NCBI RefSeq assembly: GCF_017831975.1
Contig: NZ_JAFDSS010000001.1
Location: 1,364,001-1,428,000, forward strand
Direction of reading: 5' to 3'
DNA: 64,000 nt
Origin: Microbacterium terrae
Lineage (GTDB): Bacteria; Actinomycetota; Actinomycetes; Actinomycetales; Microbacteriaceae
Numbering within the stretch: the stretch's first letter is position 1; each line of letters begins with the position of its first letter. Below the pieces are notes generated by a model. The model was given only the letters and a program-made list of their open reading frames with translations, was not told the DNA's origin and ran no database searches. The position numbers and the translations under genes are program-made. This document shows, in pieces, positions 1,302-61,830 of this stretch.

Positions 1302-2342
1302 GTGGTCAGCGAACGAGGACTGCAGGTGCTGCGGGCTATCGTCCAGGACTATGTCGACACGCGCGAGCCCGTCGGCAGCAAGGCGATCGTCGAGCGTCAC
1401 GCCTTCGGCGTCTCGGCTGCCACGATCCGCAACGACATGGCCCAGCTCGAGGACGAAGAGCTGATCACGGCACCCCACACGTCGTCGGGCCGCGTCCCGA
1501 CAGACAAGGGGTACCGCGTCTTCGTCGACCACCTCGCCGAACTCCGCCCGCTGAGCGCGGCCCAGCGGACCGCCATCTCGTCGTTCCTCGAAGGCCCCGG
1601 CGACCTCGACGACGTGATGGCGCGCACCGTGCGCGCACTCACGCGGCTCACCGGCCAGGTGGCGATCGTGCAGTACCCGTCGTTCGCCCGCGCGACGGTC
1701 ACCCATGTCGAGCTCGTGCAGCTCGGCGGGGGACGGATGCTGGTCGTCGTCGTCACCGACACCGGACGGGTCTCGCAGCGCCTCGCGTTCGTGCGCGACG
1801 AGTTCGACGACGCCGACCTCGCCACCATGCGCGCATCGATCGCCACGCTGGTCGTCGCTCAGCCCGTGCAGAACGGAATGCAGCGCATCGCCGATCACCT
1901 CGCCGGCGACCGGCTCGCGCCGTCGCCGCGCGTGCAGGCTACCGACGAGATCGCCCGCCTCGTCGCCGAGGAGCTCGACGAGTTCCGCCAGGACAAGCTG
2001 GTGATGGCCGGCAGCGCCAACCTCGCTCGTCGCGAGGCGGACTTCCGCGGCAGCATCTATCCGCTCCTCGAGGCGATCGAGGAGCAGGTGACGCTGCTCC
2101 GGCTGATGGGCGAGATGGTGGCCGACGAGCAGGGCCTCGCGACCAGCATCGGTCGCGAGAACGAGCCGTTCGGCCTCGCCGAGGCGTCGATCGTGACGAG
2201 CGACTACGACGCGACCGGGTCGCGCGCCCGCGTGGGCGTGCTCGGCCCCACACGCATGGACTACCCCACCAATCTTGCGGCGGCACGTGCCGTCGCCCGC
2301 TACCTCACGCGCCTGCTCGAAGAAGACGAGAGCAGCCGCTGA
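1302..2342 (+). CDS. hrcA: Heat-inducible transcription repressor HrcA
   Basis: HrcA binds CIRCE operators and represses class I heat-shock genes; GroEL is known to assist it in other bacteria. The N-terminal winged-helix region reads SERGLQVLRAIVQDYVDTRE, followed by GSKAIVE and AATIRNDMAQLEDEELI, all typical of the family; the C-terminal GAF-like part follows. At 346 residues it has the usual length. An open frame exists from 1275, but that start lies inside the operator. A strong GAGGAGG at 1291-1297 fits GTG at 1302 best (GTG 1299 is possible). It is followed 51 bases later by dnaJ, the usual hrcA-dnaJ pair of actinobacteria. Confidence 0.94.
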   Translation: MVSERGLQVLRAIVQDYVDTREPVGSKAIVERHAFGVSAATIRNDMAQLEDEELITAPHTSSGRVPTDKGYRVFVDHLAELRPLSAAQRTAISSFLEGPGDLDDVMARTVRALTRLTGQVAIVQYPSFARATVTHVELVQLGGGRMLVVVVTDTGRVSQRLAFVRDEFDDADLATMRASIATLVVAQPVQNGMQRIADHLAGDRLAPSPRVQATDEIARLVAEELDEFRQDKLVMAGSANLARREADFRGSIYPLLEAIEEQVTLLRLMGEMVADEQGLATSIGRENEPFGLAEASIVTSDYDATGSRARVGVLGPTRMDYPTNLAAARAVARYLTRLLEEDESSR

Positions 2343-2393
2343 CGCGGAACGAACACCACGACCCCGCGGCGCGCCGCGGGCAGGAAGGCGAAA

Positions 2394-3509
2394 GTGGCTG
2401 ACCACTACGAGGTCCTCGGCGTCTCGCGCGAAGCGACCACCGACGAGATCAAGAAGGCGTACCGTCGCCTCGCGCGGGAGCTGCACCCCGATGTGAACCC
2501 CGGCGAGGAGGCATCCGAGCGCTTCAAGCTCGTGACCCACGCGTACGACGTGCTGAGCAACCCCGATCAGCGCGCCCGCTACGACATGGGCGGCGACAAC
2601 GCGTTCGGCGGCGGCGGCGCAGCCGGATTCGGCGGGTTCGGCGACATCTTCGAGACGTTCTTCGGCGCCGGCGGCGGTGCCCGCGGCGGGCGTCCGCGCT
2701 CCCGGCGCGAGCGCGGTCAGGACGCCCTGGTGCGGGTCACCCTGGACCTCGGCGACGTCGTCTTCGGCGCCCACCGCGACATCGAGGTCGACACCGCGGT
2801 GCTCTGCGAGACGTGCGAGGGCTCCTGCTGCCAGCCGGGCACCCAGCCGGTGCGGTGCGACATCTGCCAGGGCAGCGGCCACGTGCAGCGTCAGGTGCGC
2901 AGTCTCCTCGGCAACGTCGTGACCAGCGCCCCGTGCAACATCTGCCAGGGCTACGGGACGACGATCCCGTACCCGTGCGGCACCTGCCAGGGACAGGGCC
3001 GCGTGCGCGCCCGGCGCACCGTGTCGCTCGACATCCCCGGTGGCGTCGAGACGGGCCTGCGGCTGCAGCTGCCCGGATCGGGCGAGGTCGGGCCCGCGGG
3101 CGGCCCCAACGGCGACCTGTACGTCGAGGTGACCGTGACGAACCACGACGTCTTCAGCCGTGACGGCGATGATCTCCTGGCGACACTCGAGGTCTCGATG
3201 CCCGACGCCATCCTCGGCGCGAACACCACGATCGAGTCGCTCGACGGTCCGGTCGACCTCGAGGTGCGCGCGGGCGTGCAGTCGGGCGACGTGCTCACGA
3301 TCAAGGGGCGCGGCATCACGCCGCTGCGCGGCACCCAGCGCGGAGACCTGCGCGTCGGCGTCCACGTCGTGACCCCGACCCGGCTCGACCACAAGGAACG
3401 GGCGCTCATCGAGGACTTCGCCGCGCGCACGAAGGCACCCGCGCCCCGCCTGGCCGAGTTCCACCAGGGCCTGTTCGCCAAGCTGCGCGACCGCTTCCGC
3501 AACGGCTGA
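2394..3509 (+). CDS. dnaJ: Chaperone protein DnaJ
   Basis: Hsp40 co-chaperone that stimulates the ATPase of DnaK. The J domain occupies the first 70 residues and carries the HPD tripeptide (ELHPDVNPG). A Gly/Phe-rich linker follows at about 75-105, then the zinc-binding region with four cysteine repeats: [24 protein letters not shown] and CGTCQGQG. The first repeat ends in SCC rather than the common SGA/SGC, so it carries one more cysteine than usual. The 371-residue length is normal. GTG start; it lies in the CIRCE-controlled hrcA transcript and is followed three bases later by rsmE. A second DnaJ with dnaK would be expected elsewhere in the genome. Confidence 0.95.
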
Positions 3510-3512
3510 GCC

Positions 3513-4247
3513 ATGGCGCTGCACTTCCTGCTCGAAGGACCGCTGACCGCCGAGGCCGGCGACGAGGTCGTGCTCACCGGCGCCGAGGCGCACCATGCGG
3601 CGACGGTGCGGCGCGTCCGCGCCGGCGAAGCAGTGACGGTGGGCGACGGTGCAGGCGTCTGGCTCACCGGCGAGGTCGCCTCGGTCGCGGCGCGCGAAGT
3701 GGTGGTGGTGATCGCTGCGCGTCGCACCGATCCGCAGCCGTCCCCCCGCGTCGTGCTGGTGCAGGCGCTGGCGAAGGGCGACCGCGACGAGCTGGCGATC
3801 CAGGCCGCGACCGAGCTCGGCGTCGATGCGATCATCCCGTGGCAGGCGTCCCGGAGCGTCTCGCGCTGGGACTCGGCGAAGGCCGAGAAGGGGCGGGCCC
3901 GCTGGGCCACGATCGTGCGCGAGGCTGCGAAGCAGGCCCATCGCTCGTGGGTTCCCGAGATCGGCGAGCTCACGACCACCCGCGCCCTCGCGGCGCTGGC
4001 ATCCACCGCGCGAGTCCTCCTCCTCGAACCGACCGCCGACACGCCGCTCACCGGACTCGACCTGGCCGCCGGCGACGGCGACCTCGTGTTCGTCGTGGGC
4101 CCGGAGGGCGGGTTCGCCCCGGAGGAGCTGGCAGCGCTCACGGCTGCCGGTGCGACCGCGGTGCGCCTCGGCGCGACCGTGCTGCGCACCTCGACCGCCG
4201 GGCCGGCCGCACTGTCGGTCGTCAACGCCGCACTCGGCCGCTGGTGA
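3513..4247 (+). CDS. rsmE: 16S rRNA (uracil-1498-N3)-methyltransferase RsmE
   Basis: SPOUT-class methyltransferase of the RsmE family, which methylates N3 of U1498 in 16S rRNA. The SAM-binding knot is recognised from VFVVGPEGGFAPEEL and the C-terminal LGATVLRTSTAGPAAL, both typical of RsmE. An RNA-binding N-terminal domain occupies the first 70 residues (HHAATVRRVRAGE). The length of 244 residues is normal. The ATG lies three bases after the dnaJ stop, so the two are co-transcribed; this dnaJ-rsmE order is widespread in bacteria. Confidence 0.94.
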   Translation: MALHFLLEGPLTAEAGDEVVLTGAEAHHAATVRRVRAGEAVTVGDGAGVWLTGEVASVAAREVVVVIAARRTDPQPSPRVVLVQALAKGDRDELAIQAATELGVDAIIPWQASRSVSRWDSAKAEKGRARWATIVREAAKQAHRSWVPEIGELTTTRALAALASTARVLLLEPTADTPLTGLDLAAGDGDLVFVVGPEGGFAPEELAALTAAGATAVRLGATVLRTSTAGPAALSVVNAALGRW

Positions 4248-6175: not shown

Positions 6176-7530
6176 CCGCCGCCCTCCTCCTCGCCGCCGC
6201 CGTCGTCCTGCTCGCCTTCGGCGCCCTCATGGTCGCCGTCGACGCGGCGCTCGGCGTCACCTCCCGCGCCGACCTGGCCGATCTCGCCGCCGGCGGCCGC
6301 AACGCCGCCGCGCTCGGGCGGATCGGCGCCGACCCCGAGGCGCACTCGACCGCGGTGAACTTCATCCGCGTGCTCGCCGAGACGACGGCTGCCGTGCTCG
6401 TCACGGTCGCGCTGGTCGACCTGTTCAACAGCATCTGGTGGGCCATGCTCGCCGCCGCCGTGCTCATGACGGGGATCTCGTACGTCGTCGTCGGCGCGAG
6501 CCCCCGGTCGGTCGGTCGTCGGCACGCGAAGGGTCTGCTGCGCTGGGCCGCACCCATCATCCGCGGAGTGCGCATCATCCTCGGGCCGCTCGCGCATGGC
6601 CTCGTCGCCCTCGGCACACGCATCACGCCCGGCGCTCGGAGCTCGTCGTTCGCGTCGGAGGAGCAGCTGCTCAGCATCATCGACGAGGCGACCGAGAACG
6701 AGCTCATCGAGGAGGACGACCGGGAGCTCATCCACTCGGTGTTCGACTTCACCGACGCGTTCGTGCGCGAGGTGATGGTGCCGCGCACCGACATGGTCAC
6801 GGTCGACGCATCCTCGACCACGCGCGAGGCGATGGCGGTGTTCCTCGACAAGGGGGTGTCGCGCGTCCCCGTCGTCGATGACGACGCCGACGACGTCACC
6901 GGCGTCCTCTATCTCAAAGACCTCGTGCAGTTCGGCTTCCGCGATGAGGCCGGCTGGCGCGATGCCCCGATCACGCGCATCACCCGGCCGGCGGTGTTCA
7001 TCCCCGAGTCGATGAAGGCCGAGACGCTCCTGCAGCAGATGAAGCGCGATGCGGTGCACGTCTGCCTCGTCGTCGACGAGTACGGCGGCGTCTCGGGCCT
7101 CGTGACCCTGGAAGACCTCATCGAGGAGCTCGTGGGCGAGATCGCCGACGAGTACGACCCCCGCGCCGACGAGGTCACCGAGCTCGCGCCCGGGCACTAC
7201 CGGGTGAGCTCGCGCCTCGGACTCGACGAGGTCGGCGACCTGTTCGGGCTCGAACTCGACGACGAGGACGTCGACTCGATCGGCGGGCTCCTCGGCAAGG
7301 CGCTCGGACGCATCCCGCAGCCGGGCGCGACGGCGGACTACGCCGGCCTCGTGATGACCGGCGGCGCCACGCGCGGCCGCGGTCGCGGGATCGCGACGGT
7401 CTTCGTCGAGCGCAGCGACACGGCCGACGAGGCCGAGCCTGCCGCCGCACGACACCCGCGCACCGGCGAGATCCGCGTGGTCGCACCCCGCACGGGCGAG
7501 ACCCGTGTGGTCAAGAAGGGCGGAAGATGA
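6172..7530 (+). CDS. CNNM/CorC-family CBS-domain membrane protein
   Basis: Hemolysin C / CorC-type (CNNM) protein with an N-terminal DUF21 membrane part, a CBS pair and a C-terminal transporter-associated domain. Hydrophobic segments lie at about residues 4-26, 65-82 and 87-107. The CBS pair spans about 200-330 (FVREVMVPRTDMVTVD ... VCLVVDEYGGVSGLVTLEDL), and the CorC_HlyC domain covers about 345-430. Relatives act in magnesium or cobalt homeostasis; substrate and direction cannot be read from sequence. I place the start at ATG 6172, overlapping ybeY, although the frame is open further upstream. The 452-residue length is typical. Confidence 0.9.
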   Translation: MTAALLLAAAVVLLAFGALMVAVDAALGVTSRADLADLAAGGRNAAALGRIGADPEAHSTAVNFIRVLAETTAAVLVTVALVDLFNSIWWAMLAAAVLMTGISYVVVGASPRSVGRRHAKGLLRWAAPIIRGVRIILGPLAHGLVALGTRITPGARSSSFASEEQLLSIIDEATENELIEEDDRELIHSVFDFTDAFVREVMVPRTDMVTVDASSTTREAMAVFLDKGVSRVPVVDDDADDVTGVLYLKDLVQFGFRDEAGWRDAPITRITRPAVFIPESMKAETLLQQMKRDAVHVCLVVDEYGGVSGLVTLEDLIEELVGEIADEYDPRADEVTELAPGHYRVSSRLGLDEVGDLFGLELDDEDVDSIGGLLGKALGRIPQPGATADYAGLVMTGGATRGRGRGIATVFVERSDTADEAEPAAARHPRTGEIRVVAPRTGETRVVKKGGR

Positions 7531-8426
7531 TGGCCGAGCAGACCCGATCCGGTTTCGTGACGTTCGTAGGACGACCCAATGTGGGCAAGTCGACGCTCAC
7601 GAACGCACTCGTCGGCGAGAAGGTCGCCATCACCAGCGACAAGCCGCAGACGACGAGGCGCGCGATCCGCGGCATCCTGAACCGCCCGAGCGGCCAGCTC
7701 GTCATCGTCGACACCCCGGGCCTCCACAAGCCGCGCACCCTCCTCGGGCAGCGCCTGAACGACCTCGTCGAGCAGGTGCTCGGAGACGTCGACGTGATCG
7801 GCTTCTGCGTGCCGGCGACCGAGAAGGTCGGCCCCGGAGACCGGCGCATCGCCGAGTCGCTGTCGGGGTACGGGCGCGCCAAGAAGGTCGCGATCGTGAC
7901 GAAGACGGATGCCGCGTCCCGCGACCAGATCACGGAGCGCCTGATGGAGGTCGACAGCCTCCGCGAGGACTGGGCGGCCGTCATCCCGCTGTCCGCCGTC
8001 GCCCACGAGCAGCTCGACGTGCTCTCCGACGAGCTGCTCGCCCTGATGCCGGTGGGTCCTGCGCTGTACCCCGAGGGCGTCGTCACCGACGAGACGCTCG
8101 AGGACCGCATCGCCGAGATCATCCGCGAGGCCGCGCTGGAGGGCGTGCGTGACGAGCTGCCGCACTCGATCGCGGTCACGATCGAAGACATCGCGCAGCG
8201 CGAGACGGGGTCGATGACCGACATCCACGCGAACCTCATCGTCGAGCGCGACAGCCAGAAGGCCATCATCATCGGCCACAAGGGCTCGCGCCTGCGCGAC
8301 GTGGGTGCACGCGCCCGCGCGCAGATCGAGCCCCTGGTGGGGACGAACGTGTTCCTCAAGCTCCACGTGCGCGTCGCCAAGGAATGGCAGCGCGACCCCA
8401 AGCAGCTCGGGCGGCTCGGGTTCTGA
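7527..8426 (+). CDS. era: GTPase Era
   Basis: Era binds the 3' end of 16S rRNA and assists 30S assembly. The GTPase motifs are G1 GRPNVGKST, G3 VDTPG and G4 TKTD (in place of the commoner NKxD, a change I do not regard as disabling). The C-terminal KH RNA-binding domain is recognised from IVERDSQKAIIIGHKGSRL. At 299 residues it is full length. Two tandem ATGs (7527 and 7530) could start it; the first overlaps the preceding stop. It ends the run of ribosome-related genes that began at rsmE. Confidence 0.96.
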   Translation: MMAEQTRSGFVTFVGRPNVGKSTLTNALVGEKVAITSDKPQTTRRAIRGILNRPSGQLVIVDTPGLHKPRTLLGQRLNDLVEQVLGDVDVIGFCVPATEKVGPGDRRIAESLSGYGRAKKVAIVTKTDAASRDQITERLMEVDSLREDWAAVIPLSAVAHEQLDVLSDELLALMPVGPALYPEGVVTDETLEDRIAEIIREAALEGVRDELPHSIAVTIEDIAQRETGSMTDIHANLIVERDSQKAIIIGHKGSRLRDVGARARAQIEPLVGTNVFLKLHVRVAKEWQRDPKQLGRLGF

Positions 8427-8427
8427 C

Positions 8428-9363
8428 GTGGCCGCGCACTGGATCGCGCCGCGGCCGGGCACCCCGGAGGTCTGGGAGTTCGTCGAGCACGAGGTGCCGG
8501 CGCCCGGCAGCGGCGAGGTGACGATCGCGGTGCGCGCCGCGGGGATGAACCCCGCCGACGTCAAGCACGTCGCGTCGGAGCGCCCTGGGGCGACGTTCCC
8601 CGTGCCGATCGGGTACGAGGTCTCCGGCGTGCTCACCGCGATCGGCCCCGACACCGTGATCGGCTCCGGCGCCGCGCGGATCGGTGACGAGGTGGTGGCC
8701 TTCCGTGTGCAGGGAGGCTACGCCACCGCACTCACGGTCGACGCGTCGACGGTGTTCGCGAAGCCGGCGCGGCTCAGCCACGCCGAGGCCGCGAACCTCC
8801 TCCTCGCCGGCACGACGGCGGCCGAGATGCTCGACGTGGTGAGCGCCGGAGCGGGCGAGACCATCCTGGTGCACGGCGCCTCCGGCGCGGTCGGGGTGAG
8901 CGTCCTCCAGCAGGCTCGGCTTCTGGGCGTGCGGGTCGTGGGGACGGCGGGTGAGCACGGCGCCGAGCGTGTACGACGGTACGGCGGCATCCCGGTCCGC
9001 TACGGCGACGGGCTCGCCGCGCGGGTGCGCGAGGCCGCGCCGTCGCCGGTGGCGGCGGCGCTCGACTGCGTCGGCACGGCCGAAGCCGTCGACGTGTCGC
9101 TCGACCTCGTCGCCGACCGCTCCCGAATCGTCACCATCGTCGCCGCGGCACGCGCCGCGGAGTCCGGATTCCGCGCCGTCGCGGGGGCGCTGCCGGCCAG
9201 CGCCCGGTTCCGCGACGCCGCCCGCGCCCGGCTCCTCGACCTCGCAGCGTCGGGCTCGCTCGAGGTGCCCCTCGCGACGACCTACCCGCTCGCCGACGCG
9301 AAGGAGGCCGCGGCCCACCTCATGGCGGGGCACACCGGCGGGAAGATCGCACTCATCCCGTGA
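8428..9363 (+). CDS. Zinc-independent quinone oxidoreductase-type dehydrogenase (MDR family)
   Basis: Medium-chain dehydrogenase/reductase related to NADPH:quinone oxidoreductase. The N-terminal GroES-like domain includes GMNPADVKHVASE and the Rossmann fold carries the nucleotide motif HGASGAVGVSVLQQAR. Structural zinc cysteines are missing, as expected for the quinone reductase branch. The substrate cannot be predicted. I use GTG at 8428, one base after the era stop; the frame is open into era but upstream starts would overlap heavily. Length is 311 residues. It is probably co-transcribed with era. Confidence 0.85.
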   Translation: MAAHWIAPRPGTPEVWEFVEHEVPAPGSGEVTIAVRAAGMNPADVKHVASERPGATFPVPIGYEVSGVLTAIGPDTVIGSGAARIGDEVVAFRVQGGYATALTVDASTVFAKPARLSHAEAANLLLAGTTAAEMLDVVSAGAGETILVHGASGAVGVSVLQQARLLGVRVVGTAGEHGAERVRRYGGIPVRYGDGLAARVREAAPSPVAAALDCVGTAEAVDVSLDLVADRSRIVTIVAAARAAESGFRAVAGALPASARFRDAARARLLDLAASGSLEVPLATTYPLADAKEAAAHLMAGHTGGKIALIP

Positions 9364-9378
9364 CGGCGGTCGGGCAGC

Positions 9379-10011
9379 TCAGCCGTCGATCGCGCGCAGC
9401 GCGGAGCGGATGACGACGACGCCCTCCCCGTAGTCGGCATCGGCGGCGTCCTGCCAGGTGCCGTCGTCCCAGACGACGTCTACCCAGAGCCACCCGTTGT
9501 CGGGAGTCGATCCGAGGAGCGCGTCGCCGAGTGCATCCGGCAGCCCGTCCTGGATCTCCTGCAGCTCAGCCTCGTCTCCGGCTCCCGGCTCGCCGCCGGT
9601 CGGGTCGTCGAGCATCATCGGGTCGTAGAGCGCCAGCATGATCGGCGGCTGGGTGACGGTGAACGTCTCGCCGTCGTACGTGCCCTGCACCGCGTAGGAG
9701 CCCCACGTCACGTCGCCCGAGGTCTCGGAACCGTCGAGCCTGTCCCACGACCACTCGGCGAGGGGGAGTCCGGAGCACTGCGGCGGGTACGACTCCTGAA
9801 CCGCGCCGAGGCACAGCTCGACAACGCCCGCGACGTCCATCACCATCCCCTGGGCGATCACCTCGCCCTCCGGCGGCGCCGGCCACAGCGAGCCGAGAGA
9901 GCTTCCGGGCGGGGCATCGCCGGCGGGCGCTGCGGTCGCGCAGCCGGTCACCAGCACGGCGGCGACGATCGTGAGGGCGGTGAGAGCAGGAAGTCGGCGA
10001 TGACGGGTCAT
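9379..10011 (-). CDS. Secreted lipoprotein of unknown function
   Basis: A 210-residue predicted lipoprotein. The N-terminus has a basic start (MTRHRR), a hydrophobic stretch and a lipobox ending in VTGC at about residue 24, so it should be lipidated and anchored on the outer face of the membrane. The mature part is acidic and rich in Gly, Pro and Trp, with several short segments such as VVELCLGAVQES. I recognise no domain. It is convergent with the dehydrogenase gene and its 5' end faces leuA, about 70 bases from the leuA leader peptide. No terminator is evident at its 3' side. Confidence 0.75.
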   Translation of the reverse strand: MTRHRRLPALTALTIVAAVLVTGCATAAPAGDAPPGSSLGSLWPAPPEGEVIAQGMVMDVAGVVELCLGAVQESYPPQCSGLPLAEWSWDRLDGSETSGDVTWGSYAVQGTYDGETFTVTQPPIMLALYDPMMLDDPTGGEPGAGDEAELQEIQDGLPDALGDALLGSTPDNGWLWVDVVWDDGTWQDAADADYGEGVVVIRSALRAIDG

Positions 10012-58981: not shown

Positions 58982-60004
58982 TCAGAATCCGATCGCCGCG
59001 CGATAGCGCGGCTTGTGACCGGTGCGGATGCCGGTGACGCTGGGCTTGTTCTCGTACACGCCCGCGCCCCAGTTGCCCTCCACGAGCACGGGTCCGTCGG
59101 GGGTCACCACGATGTCCCAGCCGACGTACTGCACCTGCGGCACCACGCGGGCCACCTCGTCGACGAAGGCGATGACCTCGTCGATCATCGGCAGCTGGAA
59201 GTCGCCGATGACGAAGCCGCTGTCGGGGTGCTTCTCGTGCACGTGGCCGTGGGAGTCGTAGCCGGGGCCGACGGCGTGGCCGCGCTCGTCGAGCATCGTG
59301 TAGAACCCGCCAAACGTCATCTGATCGCTCACGGCGCCGCGTCCGAACTTCTGCGCCATCGCCAGGATGTGCGTCTTCCGCCCGTCGAAGAACGCGGTCA
59401 CGCGGGTCGTGTTCACGGTGCCCGGGCAGACCGCCGCGAGATCGGCGTGCTGCCGGATGACCTCTTCGATGAGGAGCTCGCCTCGCGCGAGAAGGCCCGT
59501 GTGGAACTCGGTCCAGTCCGTGATCTCGGCGGCGTGGTAGCGGTGCACGCCGGTGCCGGCCTGGCCGACCGGCTCCTTGGTGACGATCGTGCCGTGACTC
59601 TCGGTGAACGCGCGCACGGCGTCGGCGTTGCCCGCCTCGACGATCATCCAGTCGCGCCGCAGCAGATCGCTGAACCGACGGTCGAACTCGACCTTGTCCT
59701 GGAAGATGTGGCGGAAGTCGGGGTGGTCGTACTTCTGCGAGATCTCGTTCGACACCGGATGGGTCATGTACGTCGCGCGCTCAGCCTTGTTGAGGATCGC
59801 GAAGTCGTAGTCGACGTAGTCCTGGAATCCGACCTGGCGGAATCCGGCCGACCAGAGCATGTCGACGGCGACGGCCGGGGTCCACTTGTCGTGGTCGCGC
59901 GCCGCCTCACGAGCGCGGTCCACCACCGATCCCAGATCGATGCGGCGGACACGCCAGGCGAGATAGCGAAGGCGGGGACCAAGGCGGAAGCCCTGAGAAG
60001 ACAT
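58982..60004 (-). CDS. Sugar-transfer-associated ATP-grasp protein
   Basis: A 340-residue ATP-grasp enzyme, of the type named sugar-transfer associated. The nucleotide loop is TKEPVGQAGTGVHRY, and the metal-binding end is WDIVVTPDGPVLVEGNWGAG with glutamate and asparagine. ATP-grasp enzymes join a carboxylate to an amine or thiol through an acyl phosphate; the substrates are unknown. The start MSSQGFRLGP at 60004 is used although the frame is open beyond. It is 45 bases from, and divergent to, the split racemase genes, so the two units may share control and pathway. Confidence 0.82.
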   Translation of the reverse strand: MSSQGFRLGPRLRYLAWRVRRIDLGSVVDRAREAARDHDKWTPAVAVDMLWSAGFRQVGFQDYVDYDFAILNKAERATYMTHPVSNEISQKYDHPDFRHIFQDKVEFDRRFSDLLRRDWMIVEAGNADAVRAFTESHGTIVTKEPVGQAGTGVHRYHAAEITDWTEFHTGLLARGELLIEEVIRQHADLAAVCPGTVNTTRVTAFFDGRKTHILAMAQKFGRGAVSDQMTFGGFYTMLDERGHAVGPGYDSHGHVHEKHPDSGFVIGDFQLPMIDEVIAFVDEVARVVPQVQYVGWDIVVTPDGPVLVEGNWGAGVYENKPSVTGIRTGHKPRYRAAIGF

Positions 60005-60049: not shown

Positions 60050-60781
60050 GTGAGTTCCTCGATCCCTGGGCGCGACGCGTCGGCGCCGGGATCGGAGCCG
60101 CGGAGCACCCCGATCGCCCGTGTGTCGCGGACGGCGCTGACCGCGAACCTCCGCATGGCGCAGCGGCGAAGCATCCGCGCCTTCGCGCCGTCGCTGCTCG
60201 ACGCGGATGCGTGGGGGCACGGCGCCGGTCTCGTGCAGGAGGTCCTCGACTCGGCCTCGATCCCGCCGGCGGACGCGGCGGGAGCGCGGGACCTCTCCAC
60301 GACCGCAGCTGACCGCGGCGCGCCGACCCCCGCTCCTGACACGCTGACGGCGTCGATGCTGTTCGGGATGCCGGCAAGCGGCGCGACACCGGCCCTCCGG
60401 CTGAGCGGCTCGGTGCTGTCCGTCAAAGCCCTCCGCGCCGGCGAGGGCGTCTCGTACGGCTTCCTGCACCGGGCCGACCGCGACACGCGGGTCGCCCTCG
60501 TGACCGGTGGCTACGCGCAGGGCATCTTCCGCGAGCTCGGCGGCAGGGTCGAGGTCGCGATCGCGGGGGAGCGGCATCCGATCATCGGGCGTGTCGCGAT
60601 GGATGTCTGCGTCGTCGACGTCGGCGAAGCGGCGGTCGCGCGCGGTGACGAGGTGCTGTTCCTCGGAGACCCTGCGCAGGGCGAGCCCGCGCTCGACGAC
60701 TGGGTGCTGGCGACCGGTCTCGACCCCGCCGAGCTCATCACCGCCGTCGGCCTGCGCTGCATCCGCGAGGCGGCGCCATGA
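60050..60781 (+). CDS. Alanine racemase C-terminal-domain protein, barrel largely lost
   Basis: A 243-residue protein. Residues 115-243 form an alanine racemase C-terminal domain with the catalytic tyrosine in GEGVSYGFLH (Y136), TGGYAQGIFR and IIGRVAMDVCVVDVG. The N-terminal TIM barrel is nearly gone: residues 20-62 resemble its first strand and helix, but the PLP lysine of the usual VVKADAYGHG is missing (LLDADAWGHG), and residues 65-100 are a Pro/Ala-rich linker. It cannot bind PLP alone. Its ATGA stop overlaps the next gene, which has the complementary defects. Confidence 0.85.
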   Translation: MSSSIPGRDASAPGSEPRSTPIARVSRTALTANLRMAQRRSIRAFAPSLLDADAWGHGAGLVQEVLDSASIPPADAAGARDLSTTAADRGAPTPAPDTLTASMLFGMPASGATPALRLSGSVLSVKALRAGEGVSYGFLHRADRDTRVALVTGGYAQGIFRELGGRVEVAIAGERHPIIGRVAMDVCVVDVGEAAVARGDEVLFLGDPAQGEPALDDWVLATGLDPAELITAVGLRCIREAAP

Positions 60782-61830
60782 CCACGCGAATGCACGTGGA
60801 CCTCGACGCCCTCCGAACGAACATCGCGCGCGTGCGGGAGACCGTCGCCCCTGCGCAGCTGATGATCGTCGTCAAGGACGACGCGTACGGCCACGGACTC
60901 GAGGCTGTCGCGCGCACCGCCGCCACCGCCGGGGTGACCTGGTTCGGGGCCTTCGACGTGCGCACCGGATCGGCCGTGCGCGCGGCTGTCGGCCCGGTGC
61001 CCCGCATCTTCGCCTGGATCGCGGCGTCGCGATCCGAACTCGATGAGGCCATCGCGGCCGACCTCGACCTGGGGATCGGCGACAGCGATCTGCTGGAGGA
61101 GCTCGCCGTGGCTGCTCAGCACGCCGCGGTCGTCGCCCGCGTGCACCTGAAGATCGACACCGGCCTGCATCGCAACGGGGTCCGCCCCGAGCACTGGTCG
61201 GCGTTCGTCGACCGCGCCGCCGCGCTGGAGACCGGGGGACTGATCGAGGTCGTCGGCGTGTGGAGCCACATCGCGGAAGCGTCCGACGCCGAGGACGACG
61301 AGGCGCGCGTCGCGTTCGAGCACGCCGTCGCCGTCGCCCGGGCCGCGGGCCTCCGGCCGCGCGTGCGCCACCTCGCCGCCAGCGCCGCGTCGTTCGCCCG
61401 GCCCGAGTTCCGCTACGACATGGTCCGCGTCGGCGCGTTCTGCTACGGCATCCGTTCGGCGGGCGGCCCGTCGGCATCCGACCTCGGCGTCACGCCGATC
61501 GCGCGACTGGATGCAGCAGTCACCGCCGTGCGCGGCGACGACGTGCACATCGCGCTCGGCGGGCTCCAGGGCCTTCCGACCGCGCTGCGCGGCCGCGGTG
61601 CCGTCGTCGGCACACCGGCGGGTGCACGGGAGCTGCGGCTCGTCGGGCTGCACGAATCCATCGTGGCGTCCTGGCCGGGCGCGCAGAACGGCGACGCCGT
61701 GACCGTCTACGGTCCCGGCGTCGCCGGAGAAGTGTCAGCCACCGATCTGGCCGAGCTCATCGGCACGATCGGCGAGGAGATCGCGGTACGCGTGTCACCT
61801 CTGATCCCGCGCACCTACGCGGGAGAGTGA
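60778..61830 (+). CDS. alr-like: Alanine racemase barrel protein lacking the catalytic tyrosine
   Basis: A 350-residue PLP-dependent racemase of the alanine racemase family. The barrel is complete: MHVDLDALRTNI, PLP lysine K33 in VVKDDAYGHG, KIDTGLHRNG, GVWSHIAEA, HLAASAAS and MVRVGAFCYGI. The C-terminal domain (from about 240) is degenerate: no SYG/GYG tyrosine and no MDMxxVD, only ALRGRGAVVG and the end IPRTY. The missing tyrosine is supplied by the preceding, overlapping gene, which suggests a two-subunit enzyme. Substrate could be alanine or another amino acid of the peptidoglycan. It ends four bases before the small zinc gene on the other strand. Confidence 0.85.
   Translation: MTTRMHVDLDALRTNIARVRETVAPAQLMIVVKDDAYGHGLEAVARTAATAGVTWFGAFDVRTGSAVRAAVGPVPRIFAWIAASRSELDEAIAADLDLGIGDSDLLEELAVAAQHAAVVARVHLKIDTGLHRNGVRPEHWSAFVDRAAALETGGLIEVVGVWSHIAEASDAEDDEARVAFEHAVAVARAAGLRPRVRHLAASAASFARPEFRYDMVRVGAFCYGIRSAGGPSASDLGVTPIARLDAAVTAVRGDDVHIALGGLQGLPTALRGRGAVVGTPAGARELRLVGLHESIVASWPGAQNGDAVTVYGPGVAGEVSATDLAELIGTIGEEIAVRVSPLIPRTYAGE

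Follow-up and report, generated by a model that had tools for sequence, protein, structure and literature searches.

Two adjoining genes of Microbacterium terrae, here called A and B, appear to divide between them the parts of an alanine racemase (Alr), and the comparisons reported here strongly support that their products form an obligate heteromer, in which A would supply the catalytic tyrosine and B the lysine that binds pyridoxal 5′-phosphate (PLP). The genes lie in a window of 64,000 nucleotides, the whole stretch of DNA analysed (RefSeq assembly GCF_017831975.1, contig NZ_JAFDSS010000001.1, positions 1,364,001 to 1,428,000), and all coordinates below are positions in this window. That the enzyme serves to make a D-diamino acid is a well-supported proposal, and the heteromer and this role taken jointly are probable, though held with less assurance than the heteromer by itself. 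The original prediction, made from the letters alone, had described a split, complementary alanine racemase; the split and the complementarity stand, while alanine is probably not the substrate, as B carries Glu or Asp in place of the substrate-gating Tyr354.

Gene A (60050..60781, plus strand; 243 amino acids) encodes the C-terminal domain of an alanine racemase, catalytic tyrosine included, preceded by a vestigial barrel start, and gene B (60778..61830, plus strand; 350 amino acids) encodes a full alanine-racemase barrel with the PLP lysine and a C-terminal domain without the tyrosine loop. The Pfam model Ala_racemase_C (PF00842) matches residues 116-239 of A at 106.7 bits (cut-off 25), and Ala_racemase_N has no match in A; for B, Ala_racemase_N (PF01168) matches residues 7-226 at 183.3 bits, and Ala_racemase_C touches the tail only, at 23.9 bits, under the cut-off. 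Both proteins fall below the 168-bit cut-off of the NCBIfam equivalog TIGR00492 (Alr), with 94.1 bits for A and 145.3 for B. Tyr136 of A (codon 60455..60457, plus strand), the equivalent of Tyr265 of Geobacillus stearothermophilus Alr, stands inside the motif GEGVSYG, and A also keeps GRVAMD; Lys33 of B (codon 60874..60876, plus strand), the equivalent of the PLP lysine Lys39, stands inside VVKDDAYGHG, and in the alignment B lacks both the tyrosine loop and the Met-Asp motif. The domain content first described for the two genes is thereby confirmed, with a first refinement: most of the barrel of A is indeed lost, and its N-terminus aligns as a vestige of the first beta-alpha unit, where LLDADAWGHG (60194..60223, plus strand; aligned to canonical Alr) carries Asp51 at the place of the lysine. 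HMMER scores this remnant weakly, at 8.6 bits. The stop-start overlap ATGA, also noticed at the outset, is read directly in the sequence at 60778..60781 (plus strand), and one promoter is probably common to both genes. The start of A is taken as the GTG at 60050, as the alignments of some close homologues begin at residue 1; one database record of the A protein (P0001) has 219 amino acids and probably starts at residue 25. Databases label B alanine racemase, and A either alanine racemase or alanine racemase C-terminal domain-containing protein.

The AlphaFold model of B, with a predicted local distance difference test score (pLDDT) of 94.8, superposes on the Alr structure 5faj across both domains with a template modelling (TM) score of 0.95, and B is thus, as a second refinement, predicted to retain the C-terminal domain as a fold, and with it the two-domain Alr architecture, in spite of the missing loop and motif. 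In the model of A (pLDDT 85.7) the remnant is well folded, and what matches Alr chains is the C-terminal domain together with this small remnant (TM 0.47-0.76 among the 50 matches listed). A complete Alr-like fold with its second base missing would also suit a different reading, namely that B by itself is a PLP-dependent decarboxylase, aldolase, transaminase or the like, and that A is a leftover with a regulatory or scaffolding part. This reading is quite unlikely in view of which residues A has kept in other genomes and of the gene arrangement in genus g32, both given below.

A search with A as query returned 130 matching stretches of named genome contigs, and the best 80, nearly all titled Microbacterium, were kept as loci; B lies directly 3′ of A in 79 of these, and in the 80th the contig ends past A. 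With 38 loci from 26 other Microbacteriaceae genera and six further Microbacterium loci, the set came to 124 loci, all chosen for matching A or B, ahead of which two loci of genus g32 with a different arrangement had been set aside. From 121 of the 124 loci 122 pairs were read, representing 27 genera, as one locus has two; the remaining three (L025, L027, L066) are cut or frameshifted. The tandem pair that the original prediction had advised looking for in related genomes is found in these 27 genera, and the co-occurrence of A and B is far above chance. The 122 B sequences are all distinct and form 116 groups at 90% ungapped identity, the spacing between A and B is -4 (ATGA) in 100 of the 122 pairs, and the frame of B differs from that of A in every one.

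The division of catalytic residues is kept throughout these pairs. Among 123 A and 123 B sequences (the 122 pairs and that of the window), the Tyr265 equivalent is present in every A, the Lys39 equivalent is present in every B, and the tyrosine loop is deleted in every B. The other active-site equivalents of A are nearly as constant: Tyr284 is Tyr in 115 and Phe in 8, Arg290 and Met312 are present in all 123, Arg309 in 120 and Asp313 in 119. That A should keep these residues of an Alr partner subunit despite its fast overall divergence argues against the reading in which B acts alone. At the lysine site of A no Lys occurs in the 109 readable sequences (Arg 69, Ala 23, Asp 6, Thr 5, Glu 3, Gly 2, Leu 1), the motif being unreadable in 13 of the 122 pairs. 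The A proteins of g58, g9 and g54 are longer, with a spacing from lysine site to tyrosine of 165-228 (canonical 227) and the lysine already gone, and they are likely intermediates. Outside the family, a search with B covered 297 genomes of this one order, and its two best non-family matches (L288, L290), the two that were read, are ordinary full-length Alr with the tyrosine and GTINYE. One locus (L168, genome G225) has two A/B pairs on one strand, at about 2335-4055 and 7500-9535, with two ATP-grasp genes between them and a longer second A. L065 and P0213 come from records labelled Planococcus sp. and Coraliomargarita sp. (plasmid), which hold Microbacterium-like genes and are probably mislabelled or contaminated.

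Purifying selection acts on both A and B. The ratio of non-synonymous to synonymous substitution (dN/dS) was estimated by the Nei-Gojobori method from close pairs, since the all-pairs medians (0.49 for A, 0.46 for B) are near saturation; the close-pair median is 0.21 for A (55 pairs, maximum 0.72) and 0.18 for B (25 pairs, maximum 0.40), and the neighbouring CofE and ATP-grasp genes give 0.27 and 0.26. ParE was tried as a control, gave values above 2 and was not used. Moreover, A and B diverge in step: across the 49 loci with all four genes their distances correlate with r 0.84, and the partial r is 0.60 after correction for CofE, while the same correction leaves 0.22 between A and the ATP-grasp protein and 0.01 between B and the ATP-grasp protein. 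The possibility that the pair is a decaying alr duplicate, broken in two and functionless, can draw on the domain lost from A and on the normal Alr present in the genome; with the pair in 121 of 124 loci and 27 genera, dN/dS near 0.2 and invariant catalytic residues, it is virtually out of the question, and a pseudogene or a sequencing split was likewise rejected by conservation, the ATGA overlap and dN/dS. A normal Alr alongside a pair showing loss of synteny and non-synonymous drift had been named beforehand as speaking against the heteromer; the normal Alr is there, but neither the loss of synteny nor the drift is seen.

The pair is not universal in the genus. B was matched at E 1e-60 in 244 of 295 Microbacterium genomes, and the other 51 gave weaker matches only. 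Four of the 51 still hold the pair or pieces of it: G384 (L260) and G543 (L066/L262) are drafts with frameshifts over several genes of the locus, in which the pair is not truly absent, in G580 it is rearranged, and in G443 A lies at a contig end. The pair was thus not found in 47 of the 295 genomes, three of which are less than 90% complete (G341, G507, G552). In 11 of 12 lacking loci that were fetched, A and B are both missing between sigA and parE (L209-L211, L213-L216, L222, L223, L299, L300); the stretch fetched for the twelfth (G575, L212) holds neither sigA nor parE. This joint absence from the 11 loci bears on the idea that A and B each pair with the canonical Alr and not with each other, which has in its favour that the Alr dimer fold is common to all three proteins. 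As the two genes also adjoin, mostly overlap and diverge in step, such mixed dimers are very unlikely.

The two loci of genus g32 (L161, L162) provide a natural comparison for the heteromer. Each holds a tandem of two full-length genes, apparently at the alr locus on the glmS side, of which gene 1 is a canonical-type alr and gene 2 clusters with B in both trees, lying within the B clade for the barrel (support 100/98 for the branch of 21 B and the two g32 sequences) and beside B for the C-domain (94/87); the C-domain of gene 1 groups weakly with A (88/77). Gene 2 combines the acid pair typical of B, Glu-Glu, with both the lysine and the tyrosine on one chain, and at these two loci no short A stands beside it. 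Therefore, the sole genus seen with a B-type gene keeping its tyrosine has no adjacent A, as an obligate heteromer predicts, and this too argues against B acting alone; the trees are compatible with a tyrosine loop either kept or regained in gene 2. The heteromeric racemase first put forward is thus supported, at the level of sequence, by invariant residues, in-step divergence, purifying selection and the g32 arrangement.

The substrate of such an enzyme is probably not alanine. The own genome (G000) has a complete alr of 366 amino acids adjoining glmS at about C1:2450430-2451500, with Lys, Tyr, Met-Asp and Tyr354 all present; therefore, the A/B pair is an additional, specialised enzyme, D-alanine is unlikely as its product, and a role of the pair as replacement of the housekeeping Alr was rejected. 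At the position of Tyr354, which is Tyr in all 41 canonical Alr compared (all from Microbacterium), B has Glu in 100, Asp in 22 and a gap in one of 123 sequences. The structural literature describes Tyr354 as an inner-layer entry residue (PMC3485190, PMC3245724) that controls substrate size (PMC3485190, PMC4517790), replaced by Thr or Ala in lysine-preferring racemases, and its loss in the racemases Lyr and Bar as making room for larger, cationic substrates (PMC3485190). A second acid stands at the third residue past the active-site His, which by count on the alignments is one residue ahead of the inner-layer Ala: the 41 canonical Microbacterium Alr all have Asn there, and B has Glu in 104 and Asp in 19. 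In the window these are Glu167 (codon 61276..61278) and Glu333 (codon 61774..61776, the Tyr354 position), both on the plus strand. The two acids co-vary across the 123 B sequences, as Glu-Glu in 100, Asp-Asp in 19 and Glu with Asp in three, one being unread. Given this acid pair, a cationic side chain of the substrate would be expected, and the pair of acids may represent a diamino-acid signature.

Overall similarity to Alr and the names given to A and B in databases would also agree with a heteromeric racemase for alanine or serine, acting as a second or regulated supply of D-alanine. However, a complete Alr with Tyr354 exists elsewhere in the genome, Glu or Asp replaces this tyrosine in 122 of 123 B, where charged residues at the same site of AlrTt are reported to have lowered alanine activity (PMC4517790), and the pair is dispensable, being missing from the 47 genomes described above. 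An alanine or serine racemase is therefore unlikely, and a diamino-acid racemase formed by A and B is preferred.

The neighbouring genes point in the same direction, as in many genera they include MurT-GatD, homologues of enzymes that act on the peptidoglycan D-Glu alpha-carboxyl. A PF14397 ATP-grasp ligase-like gene (58982..60004, minus strand; Pfam 109.7 bits) is divergent from A and 45 bases off, and a CofE-like gene with an F420-0:gamma-glutamyl ligase domain (PF01996; 58220..58915, plus strand; 39.3 bits) lies beyond it. The recurrent cassette is sigA, then CofE and ATP-grasp or MurT-GatD, then A-B, DUF7455 and parE. The ATP-grasp locus of related genomes holds either the orthologue or another type, and the type follows the presence or absence of A-B: the 47 lacking genomes have a single protein of 54-59% identity in 21, tandem genes or pieces of about 36-43% in 22 and none in four, and the 25 pair-bearing genomes tested have the orthologue at 70-86% in 17, a diverged set in three and none in five.

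An ATP-grasp match was absent from ten of 76 Microbacterium genomes compared, and MurT was therein sought in 40 chosen genomes, namely these ten, 29 others and G000. As the Pfam MurT model found seven and missed G580, the comparison was repeated with a protein query, by which full-length MurT is present in eight of the ten genomes without ATP-grasp (the other two, G507 and G552, are incomplete drafts) and in none of the 30 with it, where five incomplete matches of 28-35% identity probably represent other Mur ligases. MurT-GatD occupies the place of CofE and ATP-grasp beside A-B in L263 and L301-L304, beside the rearranged A-B in L305, and in L299 and L300 where A-B is missing. Among the 38 loci of other genera, MurT-GatD adjoins the pair clearly in 23 and weakly in one, CofE and/or ATP-grasp in 13, and neither in one. 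In Staphylococcus aureus, MurT/GatD converts the D-Glu alpha-carboxyl of lipid II to an amide, and Cys94 and His189 have been proposed to belong to its catalytic triad (PMC6113224). In the 32 GatD-like sequences of L263, L299-L305 and the 24 loci of other genera (L276 being a weak match), Gly or Ala stands at the cysteine site in every case and Cys in none, and the His is kept in 12. Therefore, this GatD may join an amino acid and not glutamine-derived ammonia, and a glutaminase-dead amidotransferase beside a putative diamino-acid racemase suggests that an amino acid is attached to D-Glu, which is the link of group B; MurT with the Cys-less GatD is thus a candidate group-B peptidoglycan ligase.

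Cell-wall chemistry is the other ground on which this role can be weighed. Genomes lacking the pair were tied to species by ATP-grasp identity, namely M. invictum (99.7%), M. dauci (100%), M. radiodurans (100%), M. laevaniformans (99.1%) and M. flavum (100%), and the M. lacticum protein, nearest at 91.5%, was not placed. M. laevaniformans and M. flavum, both without the pair, are taken by us to be of the L-Lys type. Microbacterium walls are described as containing D-Orn (ornithine), L-Lys or diaminobutyric acid (Dab) by clade, and the M. lacticum clade includes M. laevaniformans and M. flavum (PMC10757982); a D-Ala-D-Dab peptide is described from the wall of Rhodoluna, in the same family (PMC4156110), and a table lists D-Lys, D-Orn and Dab for family genera (PMC7033078). 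M. invictum is reported with Lys (PMC10978784) and is without the pair, as expected.

Several observations weigh against the proposed role or limit the comparisons behind it. M. radiodurans is reported with D-Orn, yet is without the pair, and M. gubbeenense (DSM 15944, L074) and M. enclense (ZYFD042, L036) are reported with L-Lys, yet have it (wall types from PMC10757982), with Lys, Tyr and Glu at the Tyr354 position intact in both. Eight lacking genomes have an ATP-grasp protein of 66-71% identity elsewhere, and the 40 genomes of the MurT comparison were not drawn at random. MurT-bearing G502 and G561 are without A-B, and therefore the ligase side is not always in need of the pair. As the loci were picked by a match to A or B, they are no measure of either gene standing alone. 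In L220 and L221, from two of the eight lacking genomes, neither stretch read holds A-B.

Based on these comparisons, we propose that the C-terminal domain of A docks on the barrel of B in the manner of the second subunit of an Alr homodimer. Upon docking, Tyr136 of A would face the PLP-bearing Lys33 of B, giving one complete active site for each A-B pair, with the second site abandoned, and Glu167 and Glu333 of B, both Asp in many genera, could hold the ammonium group on the substrate's side chain. The product would be a D-diamino acid for the group-B cross-bridge, D-ornithine in M. terrae and D-Dab or D-Lys in relatives, which the neighbouring CofE-like and ATP-grasp enzymes, or in other genomes MurT and the GatD without the glutaminase cysteine, may join to the D-Glu alpha-carboxyl. 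For the whole scheme we see the chances as evenly balanced: a duplicate of alr would have divided one dimer site between two proteins and given up the other, been retuned by Glu-Glu or Asp-Asp for D-Orn, D-Dab or D-Lys, and now feed a previously unassigned group-B ligase. The locus thus offers candidate genes for the supply of the group-B D-diamino acid and for its joining to D-glutamate; the open-licence literature searched held no paper assigning genes for D-Orn, group-B or MurT in Microbacteriaceae. If true, a family-wide heteromer with one site and with visible intermediates would be a clean case of the passage from homodimer to obligate heteromer.

No heteromeric or split Alr was described in the open-licence literature searched. 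The textbook Alr is a homodimer whose two active sites are alike, each being shared by both subunits. The fold type III PLP enzyme Alr (EC 5.1.1.1; structures 5fac, 1vfh, 1xfc) resembles the pair in its barrel with the PLP lysine, its beta domain with the tyrosine and an active site common to two subunits; however, Alr has both catalytic residues in one chain, whereas A and B carry them on two gene products, with Glu or Asp for Tyr354 and one dimer active site that would be lost. Lyr and Bar/BsrV (4dza, 4dyj, 7agz) have the Alr fold and, like B, have lost the gating Tyr354, but their homodimers are built from a single chain that has Thr (Lyr) or Ala (Bar) at this position, in place of an acid pair and two genes. 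The lipid II isoglutaminyl synthase MurT-GatD has homologues adjoining A-B in many genera, and the difference is that GatD at this locus is without the glutaminase cysteine. A parallel in principle is the deoxyhypusine synthase of trypanosomes, a heteromer of paralogues in which each supplies the catalytic residues missing from the other, although it has another fold, belongs to another domain of life, and neither of its partners is known to have lost a whole domain.

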